Origin: Bacillota bacterium
GTDB lineage: Bacteria > Bacillota > Sulfobacillia > JABLXB01
Assembly: GCA_013178305.1 (NCBI GenBank)
Contig: JABLXB010000002.1
Location: 310,001 to 374,000, forward strand
DNA: 64,000 bases
Direction: 5' to 3'
Made by a program: the position numbers and the translations under genes. How positions within the stretch are numbered: position 1 is the first letter of the stretch; each line of letters starts with the position of its first letter. Shown here one piece after another: positions 4,668 through 18,490 of this stretch. The notes beneath the pieces were generated by a model. The model saw nothing but the letters and a program-made list of their open reading frames with translations. It did no database searches and had not been told where the DNA came from.

Positions 4668-5972
4668 TCACTTCGGGCGGTTGTCGATCACCCGTTTCGC
4701 CTTACCCATACTGCGTTCGAGTGACCTGTATTCGACCAGCTTTACTTTTGGCTGTATTGACAGCGCGTTCTGGAGCTTCGAGGCTATCCTCCGTTCGAAC
4801 GCTTCGAGGTCACGGAAACTTCCGGTGAACTTCTCGCTCGTGAGTTCGACGTGCACCTCGAGTTCGTCGAGATAGCCGCGACGGTTTACCACCACCATAT
4901 AGTGCGGGGCGAGGCCATTGATGTTCATGAGCACGTTTTCTATCTGCGAGGGGAAAACGTTGACGCCCCTGATTACCAGCATGTCGTCGCTGCGCCCCAG
5001 CACCTTCTGCATGCGGGCGGTCGTGCGCCCGCACTTGCAGGGTTCGGGGTTGAGCGCCGTCACGTCCTTCGTGCGGTACCTGATGAGTGGCAACGCCTCC
5101 TTGGTAAGGGTCGTGATGACCAGCTCACCCTTCTCACCGTACGGGAGCGGTTCGCCCGTCCCGGGGTTGATGATCTCCGCGAGAAAATGGTCCTCGGAGA
5201 TGTGCATCCCCCCGCCCACCTCGCACTCGCCGGCGACGCCCGGGCCGATTATCTCGCTGAGGCCGTAGTTGTCGGTGGCCCTCAAGCCCCACGTCTTCTC
5301 GATCTCCTTGCGCATGCTCTCGGTCCAGGGTTCGGCGCCAAACAGCCCTACCCGCACCTTCAGGTCGTGGGGGTCTATTCCCTCGTCCCGCGCGACCTCG
5401 GCCATGTGTAACGAGTACGACGGTGTCGAGACGAGCGCTGTAACCCCAAAATCCTTCATGAGCATTATCTGGCGCGCCGTGTTTCCGCTCGAGGCGGGGA
5501 CGACCGCGGCGCCGACCCTCTCGAGGCCGTAGTGGAGTCCGAAACCGCCGGTGAACAGGCCGTAGCCGAAGCACACCTGCGCCACGTCTCTGGACGTCAC
5601 GCCCGCCTGGGTGACAACCCTGGCCACCAGGTTTGACCACGTTTCCAGGTCGTTCCGCGTATACCCGACAACGGTCGGCTTCCCCGTTGTGCCCGACGAC
5701 GCGTGCAGTCTCACGACCTGGTCCATGGATACAGCGAACATCCCGTAGGGGTAACTGTCGCGCAGGTCGCTCTTCGTGGTAAACGGAAGGAGCCTGACGT
5801 CCTCGAGGCTGTTAATGTGCTCGGGTCTTACCCCGCGCTCCTCCATGAGACGACGGTACGCGGGCCTGCGCTCCCAGACCCGCGCTACCGTATCCTTCAG
5901 GCGCCTCAGCTGGAGGTCCCGCCTCTCCTTCCCGTCCATGCACTCGAATTGCGGTTCCCAGATCACTAGCAT
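4668..5972 (-). CDS. paaK: Phenylacetate-CoA ligase family protein (arylacetate-CoA ligase)
   Basis: 434 residues, the normal PaaK length (about 430-440). It activates phenylacetate or another aryl acetate with ATP and CoA through an acyl-adenylate. Motifs include the P-loop [16 protein letters not shown] near residue 90, the GLSEIIGPG motif, and the C-terminal lysine region KAKRVID. It is the last gene of the T-box operon, about 110 bases downstream of the ACT gene, and resembles the second ligase of the operon closely. A GTG two codons inside is an alternative start with better ribosome-site spacing. In amino-acid fermenters such ligases usually recover or activate aryl acids derived from Phe, Tyr or Trp. 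Exact substrate is inferred. Confidence 0.93.
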
Positions 5973-6083: not shown

Positions 6084-6524
6084 CTACAGCCGGTACATCT
6101 CCTCGGCCCTGAGCACCCTCACCCCGTTGTCCTGAAGCACCTTCACGGCGCGGTCCATGTCGTCCACTCTGAACAGCACCAGCGCGTCGATGGACGCCTT
6201 GCCCAGGAACGCGTACAGGTACTCGATGTTGATTTTGGCGTCCGCCATGTGCTTGAGCACGCCGGCCAGCCCGCCAGGCTTATCGGGAATTTCCACCCCG
6301 ATCACGTCGGTCTCGCTCACCGTGAAGCCGCGATGCTGCAACGCTGCGGCGGCGTCCGTGGGGCGATCGACGATCAGGCGGAGGATCCCGAACTCTGTCG
6401 TGTCGGCGATGGAAAGCGCCCTGATATTGATGTTCTGTTCAGCCAGTGCGGACGTGACCTCATGGAGGCGCCCCGGCCTGTTCTCGAGGAACACCGAAAT
6501 CTGCTTGACGCGCATTTCACTCAC
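6084..6524 (-). CDS. Tandem ACT-domain amino-acid-binding protein
   Basis: 146 residues, start GTG at 6524 overlapping the ligase stop (GTGA), with AAGGAG five bases upstream. Two ACT repeats are visible: residues 5-70 ([15 protein letters not shown] start) and 75-140 ([15 protein letters not shown] start). Stand-alone double-ACT proteins are characteristic companions of arylacetate-CoA ligase and indolepyruvate oxidoreductase genes and are thought to sense aromatic or branched amino acids. Here it lies between two ligase genes, so regulation of ligase activity by an aromatic amino acid is plausible. No DNA-binding domain is present. Confidence 0.9.
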
Positions 6525-7858
6525 CCCTGCTCCTTGTAGACTTCGCGCCTGTCGACTACCCGCTTCGCCTTGCCCTCGCTTCTGGGGATGGTCTTCGGTT
6601 CCACCAGCTTGACCCTGACCGATATGCCCAGGGTGCTTTCGATCAGTTCCTCGATCCTGCGACGCAGTCCTTCCAGCCCCTTTACCTGATCCGAGAAGAA
6701 CCGCGCCGAGACTTCAACCCAGATTTCCATCTGGTCGAGGTTGGCCTGCCGGTCGACAACCAGCTGGTAGTGCGGCTCGGCCTCGCTGAATTGGAGGAGT
6801 ACCTCCTCGATCTGCGACGGGAACACGTTGACTCCGCGGATGATGATCATGTCGTCGGTCCGGCCACTGATCCTCGACATCCTGACGTGCGTGCGCCCGC
6901 ACGTGCAGGTCCCGGGTACGATCGACGATATGTCGCGGGTCAGGTACCTGATTATGGGCAAAGCCTCCTTGGTAAGCGAGGTGAACACGAGCTCGCCCTT
7001 TTCCCCGGGCGGGAGGTTCTCGCCGGTCACGGGATCGATTATTTCCGGGATGAAATGGTCCTCCCAGATGTGCAGGCCCGACTTATCCTGGCATTCGCTC
7101 GCCACGCCGGGCCCGATCACCTCGCTCAGGCCGTATATGTCGACCGCGCTGACGCCCAGCTTCCGCTCGATGTCCTCGCGCATGCTGTTCGTCCACGGCT
7201 CGGCTCCCAGGATCGCGTTCCTCAGCCGCAGGTCTTCCTTCTTGATTCCCAGTTCACCCATGACCTCCGCGATGTGTAACGCGTAGCTCGGGGTGCAGGC
7301 AAGCATGGTCGGGCCGAAGTCCTTCAGCAGCATGACCTGGCGCCGGGTGTTTCCCCCGGACACGGGCACGACCGTCACGCCCATCAGTTCGGCGCCGTAG
7401 TGGATGCCGAGACCGCCGGTGAATAGACCGTAGCCGTACGCGTTGTGGAGGACGGTGTCGGGGGTGCCTCCACCGCATCCGATCGTCCTCGCCATCAGCT
7501 CCGCCCACGTGCCGACGTCGTTGCGCGTGTAGCCGACGACCGTGGGCTTGCCGGTCGTCCCCGACGAAGCGTGCACTCGTACCACTTCGCGAAGGGGCAC
7601 GGCAAACATGCCATACGGGTAGTTGTCCCTCAGGTCCTGTTTGGTGGTGAACGGGAGCAACCTGAGGTCATCGATGCCCCTGATGTGCTCGGGGCGCACG
7701 CCACGCTCGTCGAGCGCCTTCCGGTAATGCGGTACACTATCATACGCCCTCCGGACGGTCGCCCGCAGGCGCTCAACCTGGAGCGCCCGCAGTTCGTCTC
7801 GCGACATGCATTCGGCCTTCCTGTTCCAGTACAAATCCATCACTCCTTGCGAGGTCAT
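6521..7858 (-). CDS. paaK: Phenylacetate-CoA ligase family protein, second copy
   Basis: 445 residues from ATG 7858, which overlaps the stop of the upstream symporter remnant as ATGA. The longer open frame reaching 8152 is rejected because it lies on top of that gene and lacks family similarity. Motifs match the first ligase: [39 protein letters not shown]-like CoA-side region and C-terminal KAKRVVD. It is the first of two ligases in the T-box operon and overlaps the ACT gene. Two ligases in one unit suggest different aryl acids (for example phenylacetate and 4-hydroxyphenyl- or indoleacetate); substrates are inferred. Confidence 0.93.
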
Positions 7859-8121
7859 ATGCCCTCGAAGCACCTGTCGACATGGCCGGGTTCCGGCGGC
7901 GCTGTCAGCATCGACACGATCACGAAAACCAGCGCAGGCAGGGGCAGCGAATACACCAGTGGGTCGATGTGGGTCCAGGGATACGGCAGTAACGCGTCCT
8001 TCCCGAAGACCAACCTGGCGATCCCAAACGGCTTCGACTCGGACAGGTGCAGGAAAACGTAACCCAGTATGCTGATCGACACGTAAACGACCATCATGAC
8101 GATGAGCACACCGAGGTACAT
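7855..8121 (-). pseudogene. Sodium:solute symporter with large internal deletion (88-codon remnant)
   Basis: An open frame of 88 codons starts at ATG 8121 behind AGGA. It joins a typical symporter N-terminus (one helix, [17 protein letters not shown]) to a typical extreme C-terminus ([20 protein letters not shown], then [15 protein letters not shown]). Full-length family members have about 480-520 residues with 12-13 helices, so some 400 codons are missing while the frame is kept. It overlaps the small accessory gene upstream and the ligase downstream (ATGA), as an intact symporter would. Either a deletion remnant kept as a spacer or a miniaturised product; transport function is unlikely. Confidence 0.7.
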
Positions 8122-8231
8122 AGTTTTTCCTGCTTGTTCCACATCGCGGCACCGTACGCTACGCAAAGCCCTGCGGAAGCGATCGTCAGAATCCATGCCA
8201 GCGATATCCAGGGGTCCGCCATACCCAGCAT
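8094..8231 (-). CDS. Symporter small accessory protein
   Basis: 45 residues, ATG 8231 behind GGGAGGG. The peptide begins [17 protein letters not shown], a single membrane helix, then a short WNK-type cytoplasmic tail. This is the signature of the tiny proteins encoded just before sodium:solute symporters in many anaerobic Bacillota. Its stop overlaps the start region of the deleted symporter by 28 bases, the normal arrangement. It is the first gene after the T-box. With its partner reduced to an 88-codon remnant, it may no longer have a function or may serve another symporter. Confidence 0.8.
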
Positions 8232-8299: not shown

Positions 8300-8635
8300 C
8301 GAATGCCTTTCGTCCCTAGGGACGAAAGGCATTGCTTCCGTGGTACCACCCTGGTTGGCGAGCCCCCCGAACCTGTCGCGGGGCCGCCCTCTCGGACGGG
8401 TACGGGCCGAATGCGTCGTTCCTGTGGCCTTATACCCGCTCCCTTGTAACGGCAGGAGATCCGCCGGGGCCTACGCCGGAGCGCGATGTAGCGCGCAACC
8501 CTTTCAGCCTCGAAGCTCCGGGGAGAACTTCAACCGGTGGTCCCGGGCGGTGCTTTCAGTCCGCGGCTCCGCCTCCCTGAACGGTCCCAGCCCAGCCTAC
8601 TTTTCCCCTTCATCACGGTAAACGCGGCAATGTAT
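8300..8635 (-). promoter_or_regulatory. T-box leader (tRNA-sensing riboswitch), probable Phe specifier
   Basis: Read on the minus strand. The T-box proper, AGGGTGGTACCACGG, lies at 8338-8352 and is followed at once by a long terminator hairpin. Upstream are the Stem I landmarks: GGGGAAAAGTAGGC (loop-E/AGTA region, about 8595-8608), the GGGAGGCGGAG apical region, and GAAG-TTC-TCC in the specifier-loop position, making UUC (bases 8525-8527, Phe) the likely specifier. The leader precedes the small symporter protein, symporter remnant, two aryl-CoA ligases and the ACT gene. The operon would therefore be expressed when the cognate aminoacyl-tRNA is uncharged. The class is firm; the specifier codon is read by eye. 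Confidence 0.92.
8302..8333 (-). terminator. T-box-controlled intrinsic terminator
   Basis: AATGCCTTTCGTCCC and GGGACGAAAGGCATT form a perfect 15-bp stem with a TA loop, followed on the minus strand by CGTGTTTTC. It immediately follows the T-box sequence, so it is the terminator alternative of the antiterminator. Confidence 0.92.
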
Positions 8636-8806
8636 TTGCCGCCGATTGTATCACGCCTTAACACCACACGCAACAACGATTTGAAAAGGTCGCCGCGATC
8701 CTCGCCGCAGAAGGTGTGCTGAGTTCCCCTGAGAATGGATCTACCGGTAGACCCCGGCGGTCAGGACGATCACATCCGGCAGGGGCAATCAGGGGAGGGA
8801 GCTGTG

Positions 8807-9159: not shown

Positions 9160-9600
9160 TGATCAGTTCGAGCAGACCTGTAAGCCGGGTTCTGTCGTGG
9201 ATGGCCATCTATCTAGGACAGCCGGTTGCCCGGCGCCTCCAGCGACCTTACCCGAGGGGTTCAGCGGGCCGCGTCATCCCCCTCCTATTTGGTCTTTCTC
9301 CAGGCGGGGTTTACCTGGCCGGCCGGTCGCCCGGCCGCCGGTGGTCTCTTACACCACCTTTTCACCCTTACCGGAAAAAACGGGAAACCGGGGTTGTAAG
9401 CGTTTGTTCCCCCACCTCGTAGAGGCGTCCCACTACGATACCCCTGGCTTCCCGCCGGCGGACTGTTTCTGTGGCACTCTCCCTGGGGTTGCCCCCGCTG
9501 GGCGTTACCCAGCGCCTTGCCCTGTGGAGCCCGGACTTTCCTCGGACGCCACCTTTCGGCGATCGCGCCCGCAGCCATCCGGCCTGCTCGAACACATACT
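9160..9600 (-). ncRNA. rnpB: RNase P RNA
   Basis: The minus strand contains the universally conserved blocks of bacterial RNase P RNA: GAGGAAAGTCCGGGCTCC (about 9526-9543) near the 5' end, GGTAAACCCC and GGGGTATC-like internal blocks, and AGAACCCGGCTTACAG near the 3' end. The ends pair: GTTCGAGCAG near 9585-9594 with CTGCTCGAAC at 9166-9175, forming P1. It is the ribozyme that matures tRNA 5' ends. Exact ends are estimated from P1. A near-consensus promoter precedes it. Confidence 0.95.
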
Positions 9601-16334: not shown

Positions 16335-17099
16335 CTACCCTTTCCTTATAACATATAGTGCCTCCTCGGCGAGGACGTTATCGGTCGGGGTCAGAGTCCT
16401 GACGCCCCCGCCGGCGTACGCGAGGCGCTCCTCGACTACCACGCCGTTATTGGCGCACCACGTTTCGAAGTCGCGGATGGTAAGCAGGTGGATGTTGGGG
16501 GTTTCGGCCCAGGAATATGGGAGGTGCGGCGTTACCGGCATCCGCCCGAGCGCAAGCAGCTGGGCCCGCACGGGGAGGTAGCCGAAGTTGGGGAAACTGA
16601 CGATGCCGAGGCGCCCCACGCGGATCATCTCGTCGAGCACCTTGAGCGGCCTGCGAACCGTCTGTAGCGTCGTCTCCAGCACCACGTAGTCGAAGCTTCC
16701 ATCGGGGTATGTTGCGAGGCCCTGGTCGATGTCGGCCTGGATGACGGGGACGCCCCTTCCGATGCACCTTGACACGCTCTCCTGGTGCACGTCTATACCC
16801 TGGCCTGTGACAGCCTTCGTATCCATGAGGTGGGCCAGCAGGTCCCCGGACCCGCAACCGAGGTCCAGTACAGACGCCCCGTGCGGTATGAGCCCCGAGA
16901 TAACGCGGTGGTCCCAGCGCTCGGCGCCGGGCAAGCCGGCCTGCTGCGGAGCCGGTCCTGTGCGCCCGCTGGCGGAATCCCTGGCCATCCTGGTCAGGGT
17001 CTCGACGGGATCTCCTGAGCCGTAAGCCTTGAGGGCCTGCATGATCGTGGCGAGTTCGAGTTCCTCATCCCAGGCGAATTCCGGCACGGCGGGCGACAC
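16335..17099 (-). CDS. metW: MetW-like class I SAM-dependent methyltransferase
   Basis: 254 residues from GTG 17099; GTG 17087 is an alternative eleven bases after GGGAGG. It overlaps the end of metX by 35 bases. The SAM site is VLDLGCGSGDLLAHL near residue 80, then GIDVHQESV and FDYVVLETTLQTVRRP, a MetW hallmark, and SFPNFGYLPVRAQLL. MetW (usually about 200 residues) is the partner of homoserine O-acetyltransferase in methionine synthesis in many bacteria and is needed for MetX activity in some. An N-terminal extension of about 60 residues is present here. Confidence 0.92.
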   Translation of the reverse strand: MSPAVPEFAWDEELELATIMQALKAYGSGDPVETLTRMARDSASGRTGPAPQQAGLPGAERWDHRVISGLIPHGASVLDLGCGSGDLLAHLMDTKAVTGQGIDVHQESVSRCIGRGVPVIQADIDQGLATYPDGSFDYVVLETTLQTVRRPLKVLDEMIRVGRLGIVSFPNFGYLPVRAQLLALGRMPVTPHLPYSWAETPNIHLLTIRDFETWCANNGVVVEERLAYAGGGVRTLTPTDNVLAEEALYVIRKG

Positions 17100-18297
17100 C
17101 TCCCACGAAGCTCCTCACCATGTGACCCACGGCGTCGACCTCCAGCAGAAACGCGTCGTGTCCGTATGACGACTGGATGTTGGCGTAGGTCACCTCCAGC
17201 CTGTTGGCGGACAGCGCGTCAACCCATTCCTTGCACTGGGCGGGGGTGTACAGCCAGTCGCTCGAGAACGAGACGACGAGCCAGGCGCATTCGGAACGCG
17301 CTGCGGACTCGACCAGATCGCCCCCTCCCCACACCGACGCGTCGAAGTAGTCCATGGCCTTGCTGATGTATATATAGCTATTGGCGTCGAAGCGCTCGCT
17401 GAACGCCTTGCCCTGATGCCTGAGGTAGCTTTCGACCTCGAATTCGGGGTCGAGGTTGAACGACGGGACGTCGCCGTTCTTCAATCGACGTCCGAACTTC
17501 CGGCCCATGCTGACTTCGGATAAATAGGTGATGTGCCCGATCATGCGCGCCACGCCCAGCCCCCTGGCGGGTGGGTCATCATCGTAGTAATCACCGCTGC
17601 GGAAGTTGGGATCCGTCGTTATCGCCCGGCGCCCGACGGCGTTGAACGCGACCCCCTGCGCGCTCAGCCGCGGCGATGCGGCCAGCACCACTGCGGACCG
17701 GACGCGGTCGGGATACGCCAGCGCCCACTCGATGGCCTGCTGCCCGCCCAGCGACCCGCCTGCAACGGCCAGCAGCCTCCGGATCCCCAGGTACGTCACG
17801 AGCCTCTCCTGCAGTCGTACCCAGTCCCCGACCGTAGTGACGGGGAAGCGGAGCCCGTACGGCTTTCCCGTTTCGGGGTCCGTGGAGGACGGTCCCGTCG
17901 TCCCGTAGCAGCTCCCGAGGACATTCGAGCAGATTACGAAGTAAAGGTTCGTGTCAAACGCCTTGCCGGGGCCGACCATGGTGTCCCACCAGCCGGGCCG
18001 GCCCACCCTCCAGTGCCTGCCGTCCTGCTCGGCCTGCGCGTCCCAGCCCGCCACGTGAGCGTCGCCGCTGAGGGCGTGCAGGATGAGTATCGCGTTGTCT
18101 CGCTTCTCATTGAGCCGGCCATACGTCTCGAACTCGACCGTCACCGGCCAGAGGCTCCTGCCGCAATCGAGCGGCAGGGGGTTGGATTCGTCCGCAATCT
18201 GCAGGCGCTGCGGTCGCGTCCATCCCACGGAACCGGGTGAGTCGGGCGCGTCATACTCTTTCTGCGCCCTCGTAAGCACGTTCAACGGGTCACTCAT
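17065..18297 (-). CDS. metX: Homoserine O-acetyltransferase (MetX)
   Basis: 410 residues from ATG 18297; the open frame extends to 18357 but that part is inside the riboswitch terminator. It is an alpha/beta-hydrolase-fold acyltransferase: HALSGDAHVAGW oxyanion region near residue 75, the nucleophile elbow VAGGSLGGQQAIEWA (Ser near 175) and the C-terminal SSYGHDAFLLE with the catalytic His; the Asp is in the SSDWLYTP region. It acetylates (or succinylates) homoserine in the first step of methionine synthesis. The upstream SAM-I riboswitch and the overlapping metW settle the pathway. Confidence 0.96.
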   Translation of the reverse strand: MSDPLNVLTRAQKEYDAPDSPGSVGWTRPQRLQIADESNPLPLDCGRSLWPVTVEFETYGRLNEKRDNAILILHALSGDAHVAGWDAQAEQDGRHWRVGRPGWWDTMVGPGKAFDTNLYFVICSNVLGSCYGTTGPSSTDPETGKPYGLRFPVTTVGDWVRLQERLVTYLGIRRLLAVAGGSLGGQQAIEWALAYPDRVRSAVVLAASPRLSAQGVAFNAVGRRAITTDPNFRSGDYYDDDPPARGLGVARMIGHITYLSEVSMGRKFGRRLKNGDVPSFNLDPEFEVESYLRHQGKAFSERFDANSYIYISKAMDYFDASVWGGGDLVESAARSECAWLVVSFSSDWLYTPAQCKEWVDALSANRLEVTYANIQSSYGHDAFLLEVDAVGHMVRSFVGGVARRAGIRLG

Positions 18298-18328
18298 AGG
18301 CCTTACGGGTTCCCCTCCCAAATGGCAA

Positions 18329-18351
18329 CGCCCCTTCGAGTGGAAGGGGCG
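18329..18351 (-). terminator. Riboswitch-controlled terminator before metX
   Basis: CGCCCCTTC and GAAGGGGCG form a perfect 9-bp stem with a five-base loop, just downstream of the SAM-I aptamer and about 30 bases upstream of metX, followed by TTGCCATTT on the minus strand. It is the off-state terminator of the riboswitch. Confidence 0.88.
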
Positions 18352-18371
18352 CAACATGTTTGATCGTTGGC

Positions 18372-18490
18372 CTCCACTCTCATCTCTCAGGGTTCACCCT
18401 GCAGGAGTTGGCACCTTTACGGCTAATGGAACCGCGAGGTTGCCGGGCTTCATCGGGCCAGTCCCTCCGCCGCTCTGGATAAGAGGAGTT
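18372..18490 (-). promoter_or_regulatory. SAM-I (S-box) riboswitch aptamer
   Basis: The minus strand reads CTCTTATCCAGAGCGGCGGAG, then GGGACTGGCCCGATGAAGCC, CGGCAACC and, at the 3' side, GATGAGAG, pairing with the 5' CTCTTATC as P1. These are the S-box consensus elements in order with the GCCC-GATGAAGCC kink-turn region. A terminator hairpin and metX-metW follow, so SAM abundance should switch the genes off. Confidence 0.96.

Follow-up and report, generated by a model that had tools for sequence, protein, structure and literature searches.

A phenylalanine-specifier T-box leader upstream of PaaK-family aryl-acid CoA ligase genes and its predicted link to aryl-acid salvage

A T-box leader turns on the genes that it controls when its amino acid runs short. 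The closest described relatives of the leader reported here are the pheST and pheA T-box leaders (RF00230), with which it shares Stem I, a UUC specifier, the T-box sequence, an antiterminator and a predicted terminator, and the pheST leader of its own genome is its closest paralog there over Stem I (57.5% identity). However, the pheST and pheA leaders control tRNA charging or the shikimate branch, whereas this leader precedes aryl-acid CoA ligases. The Bacillus cereus group offers an example of a T-box on an aromatic amino acid gene that is not part of the standard operons: its phenylalanine-4-hydroxylase, a non-classical aromatic gene, is T-box-controlled (PMC2494555), although both the enzyme and the precursor are different ones.

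Ligases of the PaaK family are best known from phenylacetate degradation, and both PaaK and indolepyruvate ferredoxin oxidoreductase (IorAB) are usually annotated as catabolic. The PaaK proteins encoded in the window, by which we mean the whole stretch of 64,000 nucleotides that was analysed, belong to the same enzyme family as those of aerobic phenylacetate degradation (TIGR02155; PDB 2y4o, 2y27, 4r1l) and probably share their substrate, but differ in having an ACT partner, in an anaerobic setting and in a T-box control that is opposite in sign to degradation. Methanococcus maripaludis can turn aryl acids into aromatic amino acids via IOR, as a second route (Porat et al., as cited in PMC4162585). 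That route has the same aryl-acid precursors and the same indolepyruvate ferredoxin oxidoreductase as the one proposed below; it differs in that it belongs to an archaeon, that T-box control does not enter the passages of PMC4162585 that describe it, and that iorAB is broken in the window's genome.

Each element taken singly (RNA family, specifier, pathway) is of a known kind, and we found no report that combines them. A search of mainly open-licence literature for T-boxes in connection with paaK, indolepyruvate or phenylacetate-CoA ligase gave no relevant paper; PMC3766115 does not mention a link between T-boxes and aryl-acid ligases, and PMC2494555 mentions neither phenylacetate nor CoA ligase. 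The link may have been listed before, for example in Vitreschak et al. 2008 or in TBDB.

We hypothesise that the locus combines attenuation by a phenylalanine T-box with a route from aryl acids to phenylalanine. Taken together, these two elements are the best explanation of the sequence data and, in our judgement, a probable one.

Anatomy of the leader and its specifier codon

The leader runs from Stem I to the terminator at 8302–8640 on the minus strand, as delimited by the RF00230 match and a terminator scan. The match itself (8315–8622, minus strand) covers 219 of 219 model positions (1–219) with 82.0 bits and an E-value of 3.1e-18, and bears out the original prediction of a T-box at 8300–8635. 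Its score is below the RF00230 gathering threshold of 93 bits, and an Rfam search of the window at that threshold did not call the leader as a T-box; it was recovered by E-value after this run had missed it. All 17 T-boxes of the genome fall below the threshold, among them the pheS, valS, leuS, metS, alaS, trpE and ilv leaders (the names of the controlled genes were assigned by eye from translations), so that none of them is caught at the standard Rfam cut-off, and the likely reason is that the genome is GC-rich.

Stem I occupies 8515–8616 (minus strand; Rfam alignment and an alignment of 27 leaders) and has a GA/kink-turn motif at its base, an AGUA/GAA specifier loop with a paired helix below it, and a distal loop. 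The T-box sequence, GGGUGGUACCACG, was read directly at 8339–8351 on the same strand, and its bulge UGGU (8345–8348) pairs with the tRNA 3' end ACCA. A terminator hairpin of 14 pairs with a loop of 4 and the tail CGUGUUUUC follows at 8302–8333 (minus strand; terminator scan and comparison of leader tails), although the U-tract after the hairpin is weak, reading CGUGUUUU, whereas relatives mostly have 4–7 U directly after theirs. Upstream, TTGCGT-17-TACAAT at 8645–8673 (minus strand, read from the sequence) is a possible promoter with a weak −35 element; a consensus promoter scan upstream of the leader found none, this candidate being too weak to pass. The specifier, T-box and antiterminator are intact, and we regard it as near certain that the leader is a T-box, probably a transcriptional one. 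Just upstream of it, on the same strand, lies a class A RNase P RNA (9165–9590, minus), and elsewhere in the window a SAM riboswitch (18377–18485, minus) is found 5' of a homoserine O-acetyltransferase-like gene (17065–18357), which is an ordinary arrangement.

The specifier codon UUC (Phe) is located at 8525–8527 on the minus strand, in the context GAAG-UUC-U and 5' of a CCCC strand. Its register was assigned from the pheST leader and from the helix that adjoins it, using a Stem I alignment of 27 leaders, of which 26 lie upstream of PaaK (24 UUC and 2 UAC) and one is the genome's own pheST leader; the helix structure was taken from the Rfam consensus and is independent of this alignment. Immediately under the specifier loop lies a helix of four pairs in which 99.1% of cells are paired, and each of the four pairs shows changes on its two sides. 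None of 500 shuffles reached the observed percentage paired (six pairs counted), and shifting the partner by one, two or three columns cuts the paired share from 97.5% to at most 62%. Since the adjoining helix covaries in the 27 leaders, the register of the specifier is fixed. The invariance of the codon itself in the alignment is partly due to selection, as the leaders were chosen by requiring T[TA]C there; the Rfam model, which is blind to the specifier, assigns these bases to identical columns in seven leaders of six other genomes as well as in the window's leader and pheST. The pheST leader has UUC at the position equivalent to 8525–8527, and control leaders read by the same rule gave UUC for pheST and pheA, UAC for aroF-tyrA, UGG for trpE, GUC for valS and CUC for leuS. 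The genome's tRNA-Phe has the anticodon GAA, which matches UUC, and the discriminator A73 with a CCA end, matching the UGGU bulge.

A specifier read in another frame, as GUU (Val) or UCU (Ser), has to be considered given that alternative frames occur in a survey of T-boxes (PMC7778990), but we find it very hard to sustain here. Read one base back, most leaders give GUU but L221 gives AUU, and one base forward the third position takes all four letters, whereas UUC does not vary among the leaders of the Phe group; UUC also lies in the default frame of that survey, 2–4 bases before the bulge end, a frame that the pheST leader shares. We therefore take the UUC specifier as confirmed at the level of sequence, with the leader as a predicted sensor of uncharged tRNA-Phe. 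The covariance-model alignment that had been suggested as a check on Stem I and the specifier gave a full-length match and placed the codon on UUC, and the "probable" Phe specifier of the original prediction now stands on the covarying helix, the pheST leader, the tRNA-Phe with GAA and A73, and the occurrence of UUC before PaaK in 28 other genomes.

We also considered whether the leader is a duplicate of the pheST leader, to which its Stem I identity is highest, but the leader tree lacks resolution on this point and we make no such claim. Among the other T-boxes of the genome, the aroF-tyrA (UAC, L001) and pheA (UUC, L004) leaders are 67% identical and form a Tyr/Phe pair that differs in the specifier. 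Two Trp (UGG) T-boxes, L012 and L013, are 64.5% identical, the latter preceding a TrpB2-like gene and the former lying at a contig end. The leuS leader (L007; G000:C9, T-box 1501–1805) contains a complete tRNA-Ala(GGC) gene at 1671–1746, between the CGUUA region and the antiterminator.

Downstream genes and recurrence of the arrangement

The genes that follow the leader are all on the minus strand. The first, at 8094–8231, encodes a small accessory protein of a symporter (NF045580, E 3e-14, 52.9 bits against a cut-off of 35), and its 3' end runs into the remnant of a sodium:solute symporter (7855–8121) of which only the last ~90 residues are left; these align with residues 449–539 of the full-length SSF-family symporter of L056 (E 3e-13, two-sequence comparison). 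PaaK1, an aryl-acid (phenylacetate) CoA ligase, is encoded at 6521–7858 and matches TIGR02155 over the full model (E 1e-187, 623.6 bits). Its substrate is likely, but not settled, to be phenylacetate, because the score is just under the equivalog cut-off of 646.3 and the nearest solved structures are the phenylacetate-CoA ligases 2y4o, 2y27 and 4r1l. An ACT-domain pair protein (6084–6524; PF19571 ACT_8, E 3e-28), probably an amino acid sensor, is followed by a second PaaK-family ligase, PaaK2 (4668–5972; TIGR02155 E 6e-165, 548.9 bits over the full model, below the same cut-off of 646.3), which falls in a 22-row paralog clade with PaaKs under Tyr T-boxes (support 99). The reading frames of the two PaaK genes and of the ACT gene are uninterrupted and of full length. 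The operon of aryl-acid CoA ligases, an ACT protein and a former transporter is thus as first described, and the predicted control of the ligases by the leader is favoured by gene order and by the recurrence that follows.

Of 398 genomes of the phylum, 218 have at least one match to PaaK. A relaxed T-box pattern, applied to up to 700 bases upstream of PaaK at 222 loci with 251 PaaK hits, gave 41 hits. Seven of these (L034, L097, L186, L187, L198, L199 and L234) were dropped since by eye they are no T-box, and one more was removed because its contig is a duplicate, so that 33 distinct leaders remain; 28 were extracted by script and five by eye (the first of L206, L224, L251, the first of L310, and L315), with 12 leaders first inspected in full length and more afterwards. 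Directly upstream of PaaK, 31 leaders have UUC and 2 have UAC. They come from the window, from 28 other genomes of 16 families, each of these genomes with a Phe (UUC) T-box directly upstream of PaaK, and from two further named loci; as the genomes are those that ranked highest for PaaK, the count is no phylum-wide rate. A stricter T-box core pattern, run on the 80 loci ranked nearest by their ACT protein, picked up no T-box upstream of PaaK, which is a limit of the pattern, as the laxer one recovers the PaaK T-boxes of L032, L055 and L070 that the strict one missed. In L319 (upstream of PaaK, minus strand), some 300 bases of imperfect GGGATCTGA-like repeats lie between Stem I and the antiterminator.

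The two Tyr (UAC) leaders, in L206 and L310, precede a second PaaK that stands beside the PaaK-ACT pair under a Phe (UUC) T-box, and the UAC-controlled PaaKs form a clade apart from the Phe-controlled ones, shared with PaaK2 of the window. A search of 37 regions for T-boxes upstream of iorA yielded one convincing case (L332, G106:C5, minus strand), directly upstream of iorA, with a specifier read by eye as UGG (apparent Trp) in a specifier loop that departs from the canonical motif. In L037 a T-box that follows IorB has the specifier GCC (Ala); it precedes an aminotransferase and was set aside as no part of the aromatic system. Anaerobic bacteria may possess a salvage regulon in which Phe T-boxes control the ACT-linked PaaK, Tyr T-boxes a PaaK paralog and Trp T-boxes iorA, the specifier predicting the substrate and the direction being biosynthetic; we give this wider scheme about even chances, and the assignment of the Tyr-controlled paralog as a 4-hydroxyphenylacetate-CoA ligase, as one of its parts, goes with it.

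A predicted route from aryl acids to phenylalanine

Leader anatomy, specifier register, matching tRNA, gene order and recurrence in distant genomes are the observations from which a mechanism can be proposed. Uncharged tRNA-Phe would be sensed through UUC, and in phenylalanine shortage RNA polymerase would read through into the genes for PaaK1, the ACT pair and PaaK2. PaaK would form phenylacetyl-CoA, a 2-oxoacid:ferredoxin oxidoreductase would carboxylate it reductively to phenylpyruvate, and an aminotransferase would convert phenylpyruvate to phenylalanine, with the ACT protein possibly reporting the product. Starvation-induced salvage of this kind, leading from aryl acid through aryl-CoA and arylpyruvate to the aromatic amino acid, is the interpretation of the system's role that fits best, and a likely one.

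The surroundings of PaaK in other genomes are consistent with this. The PaaK-ACT pair is conserved across phyla, and many loci have IorAB before it or a class I/II aminotransferase after it. IorA is intact in 23 of 28 genomes with a T-box before PaaK, as against 6 of 20 that lack PaaK (Fisher p 4e-4), a comparison confounded by shared anaerobic ancestry or lifestyle; no recognisable IorA was found in the other 5 of the 28, one of which is 80% complete. Prephenate dehydratase is kept in 27 of 29 T-box-PaaK genomes, that of the window included, which makes the aryl-acid route an addition rather than a necessity, perhaps a cheaper supply.

PaaK and the ACT protein could instead serve another purpose, such as supplying aryl-CoA to degradation, to fermentation or to a secondary product, with the phenylalanine control just reporting aromatic amino acid status. 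Phenylacetate degradation is after all the best-known setting of PaaK, and in Deltaproteobacteria the PaaK-ACT module adjoins a LivJHMGF-type transporter, which would fit amino acid catabolism. We nevertheless think this improbable, because a T-box that is on in shortage has the wrong sign for degradation, and the Phe T-boxes, the Tyr T-box on the PaaK paralog and the apparent Trp T-box on iorA alike follow a biosynthetic logic. The salvage reading also leaves unbroken the generalisation that T-boxes, as known so far, mostly act on the synthesis, charging or transport of amino acids, since an aryl-acid route would be amino acid synthesis by another way.

The window's own genome fits the salvage reading less well. 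The original prediction had suggested checking it for indolepyruvate ferredoxin oxidoreductase genes, and the check gave no intact IorAB: the locus at G000:C2:158443–159604 (L029) is a pseudogene, with an in-frame TAG stop and an in-frame deletion of ~235 residues in iorA and with iorB cut to 54 residues. Re-synthesis of phenylalanine through this oxidoreductase, as first suggested, is disfavoured here by that check, but holds up as a probable role in relatives, given the frequency of IorA, the IorAB and aminotransferase neighbours and the Tyr and apparent Trp T-boxes described above. In two genomes of the same family IorA is intact, and a search of both for the ACT protein found no match.

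Because both IorAB and the symporter are broken, another oxidoreductase and another importer would be needed for the last steps of the route in this genome, if they still run. Six further loci carry an oxidoreductase gamma-type domain, with matches to PF01558 that span almost all of that model, and could, judging by sequence, stand in for IorAB. The route may therefore either use another 2-oxoacid:ferredoxin oxidoreductase or be decaying. In the latter case the Phe T-box would be real but the operon on its way out, the salvage no longer closing and the ligases persisting for a while, as the lesions of iorAB against the intact IorA of the two relatives, the symporter remnant and the weak U-tract would suggest. 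We rate decay as the less probable outcome, although well worth keeping in view, as both ligase genes and the ACT gene remain open and full length, the regulatory elements of the leader are intact and the six PF01558 loci are at hand. It could also be asked whether the lesions of iorAB and the symporter are errors of assembly, for the genome is a draft of 22 contigs with 3.86% contamination and both large gaps are in frame. The several independent lesions of iorAB (stop, deletion and truncated iorB) make this improbable too.

If the salvage reading is correct, a starvation-induced T-box with a codon for an aromatic amino acid would make the direction of a pathway, and the substrates of PaaK paralogs, predictable from sequence alone. 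Organisms with a Phe T-box before PaaK and an intact IorAB would be expected to convert phenylacetate to phenylalanine and to induce PaaK on phenylalanine limitation. The recurrent wiring suggests that such anaerobes rebuild phenylalanine from aryl acids when they are short of it.
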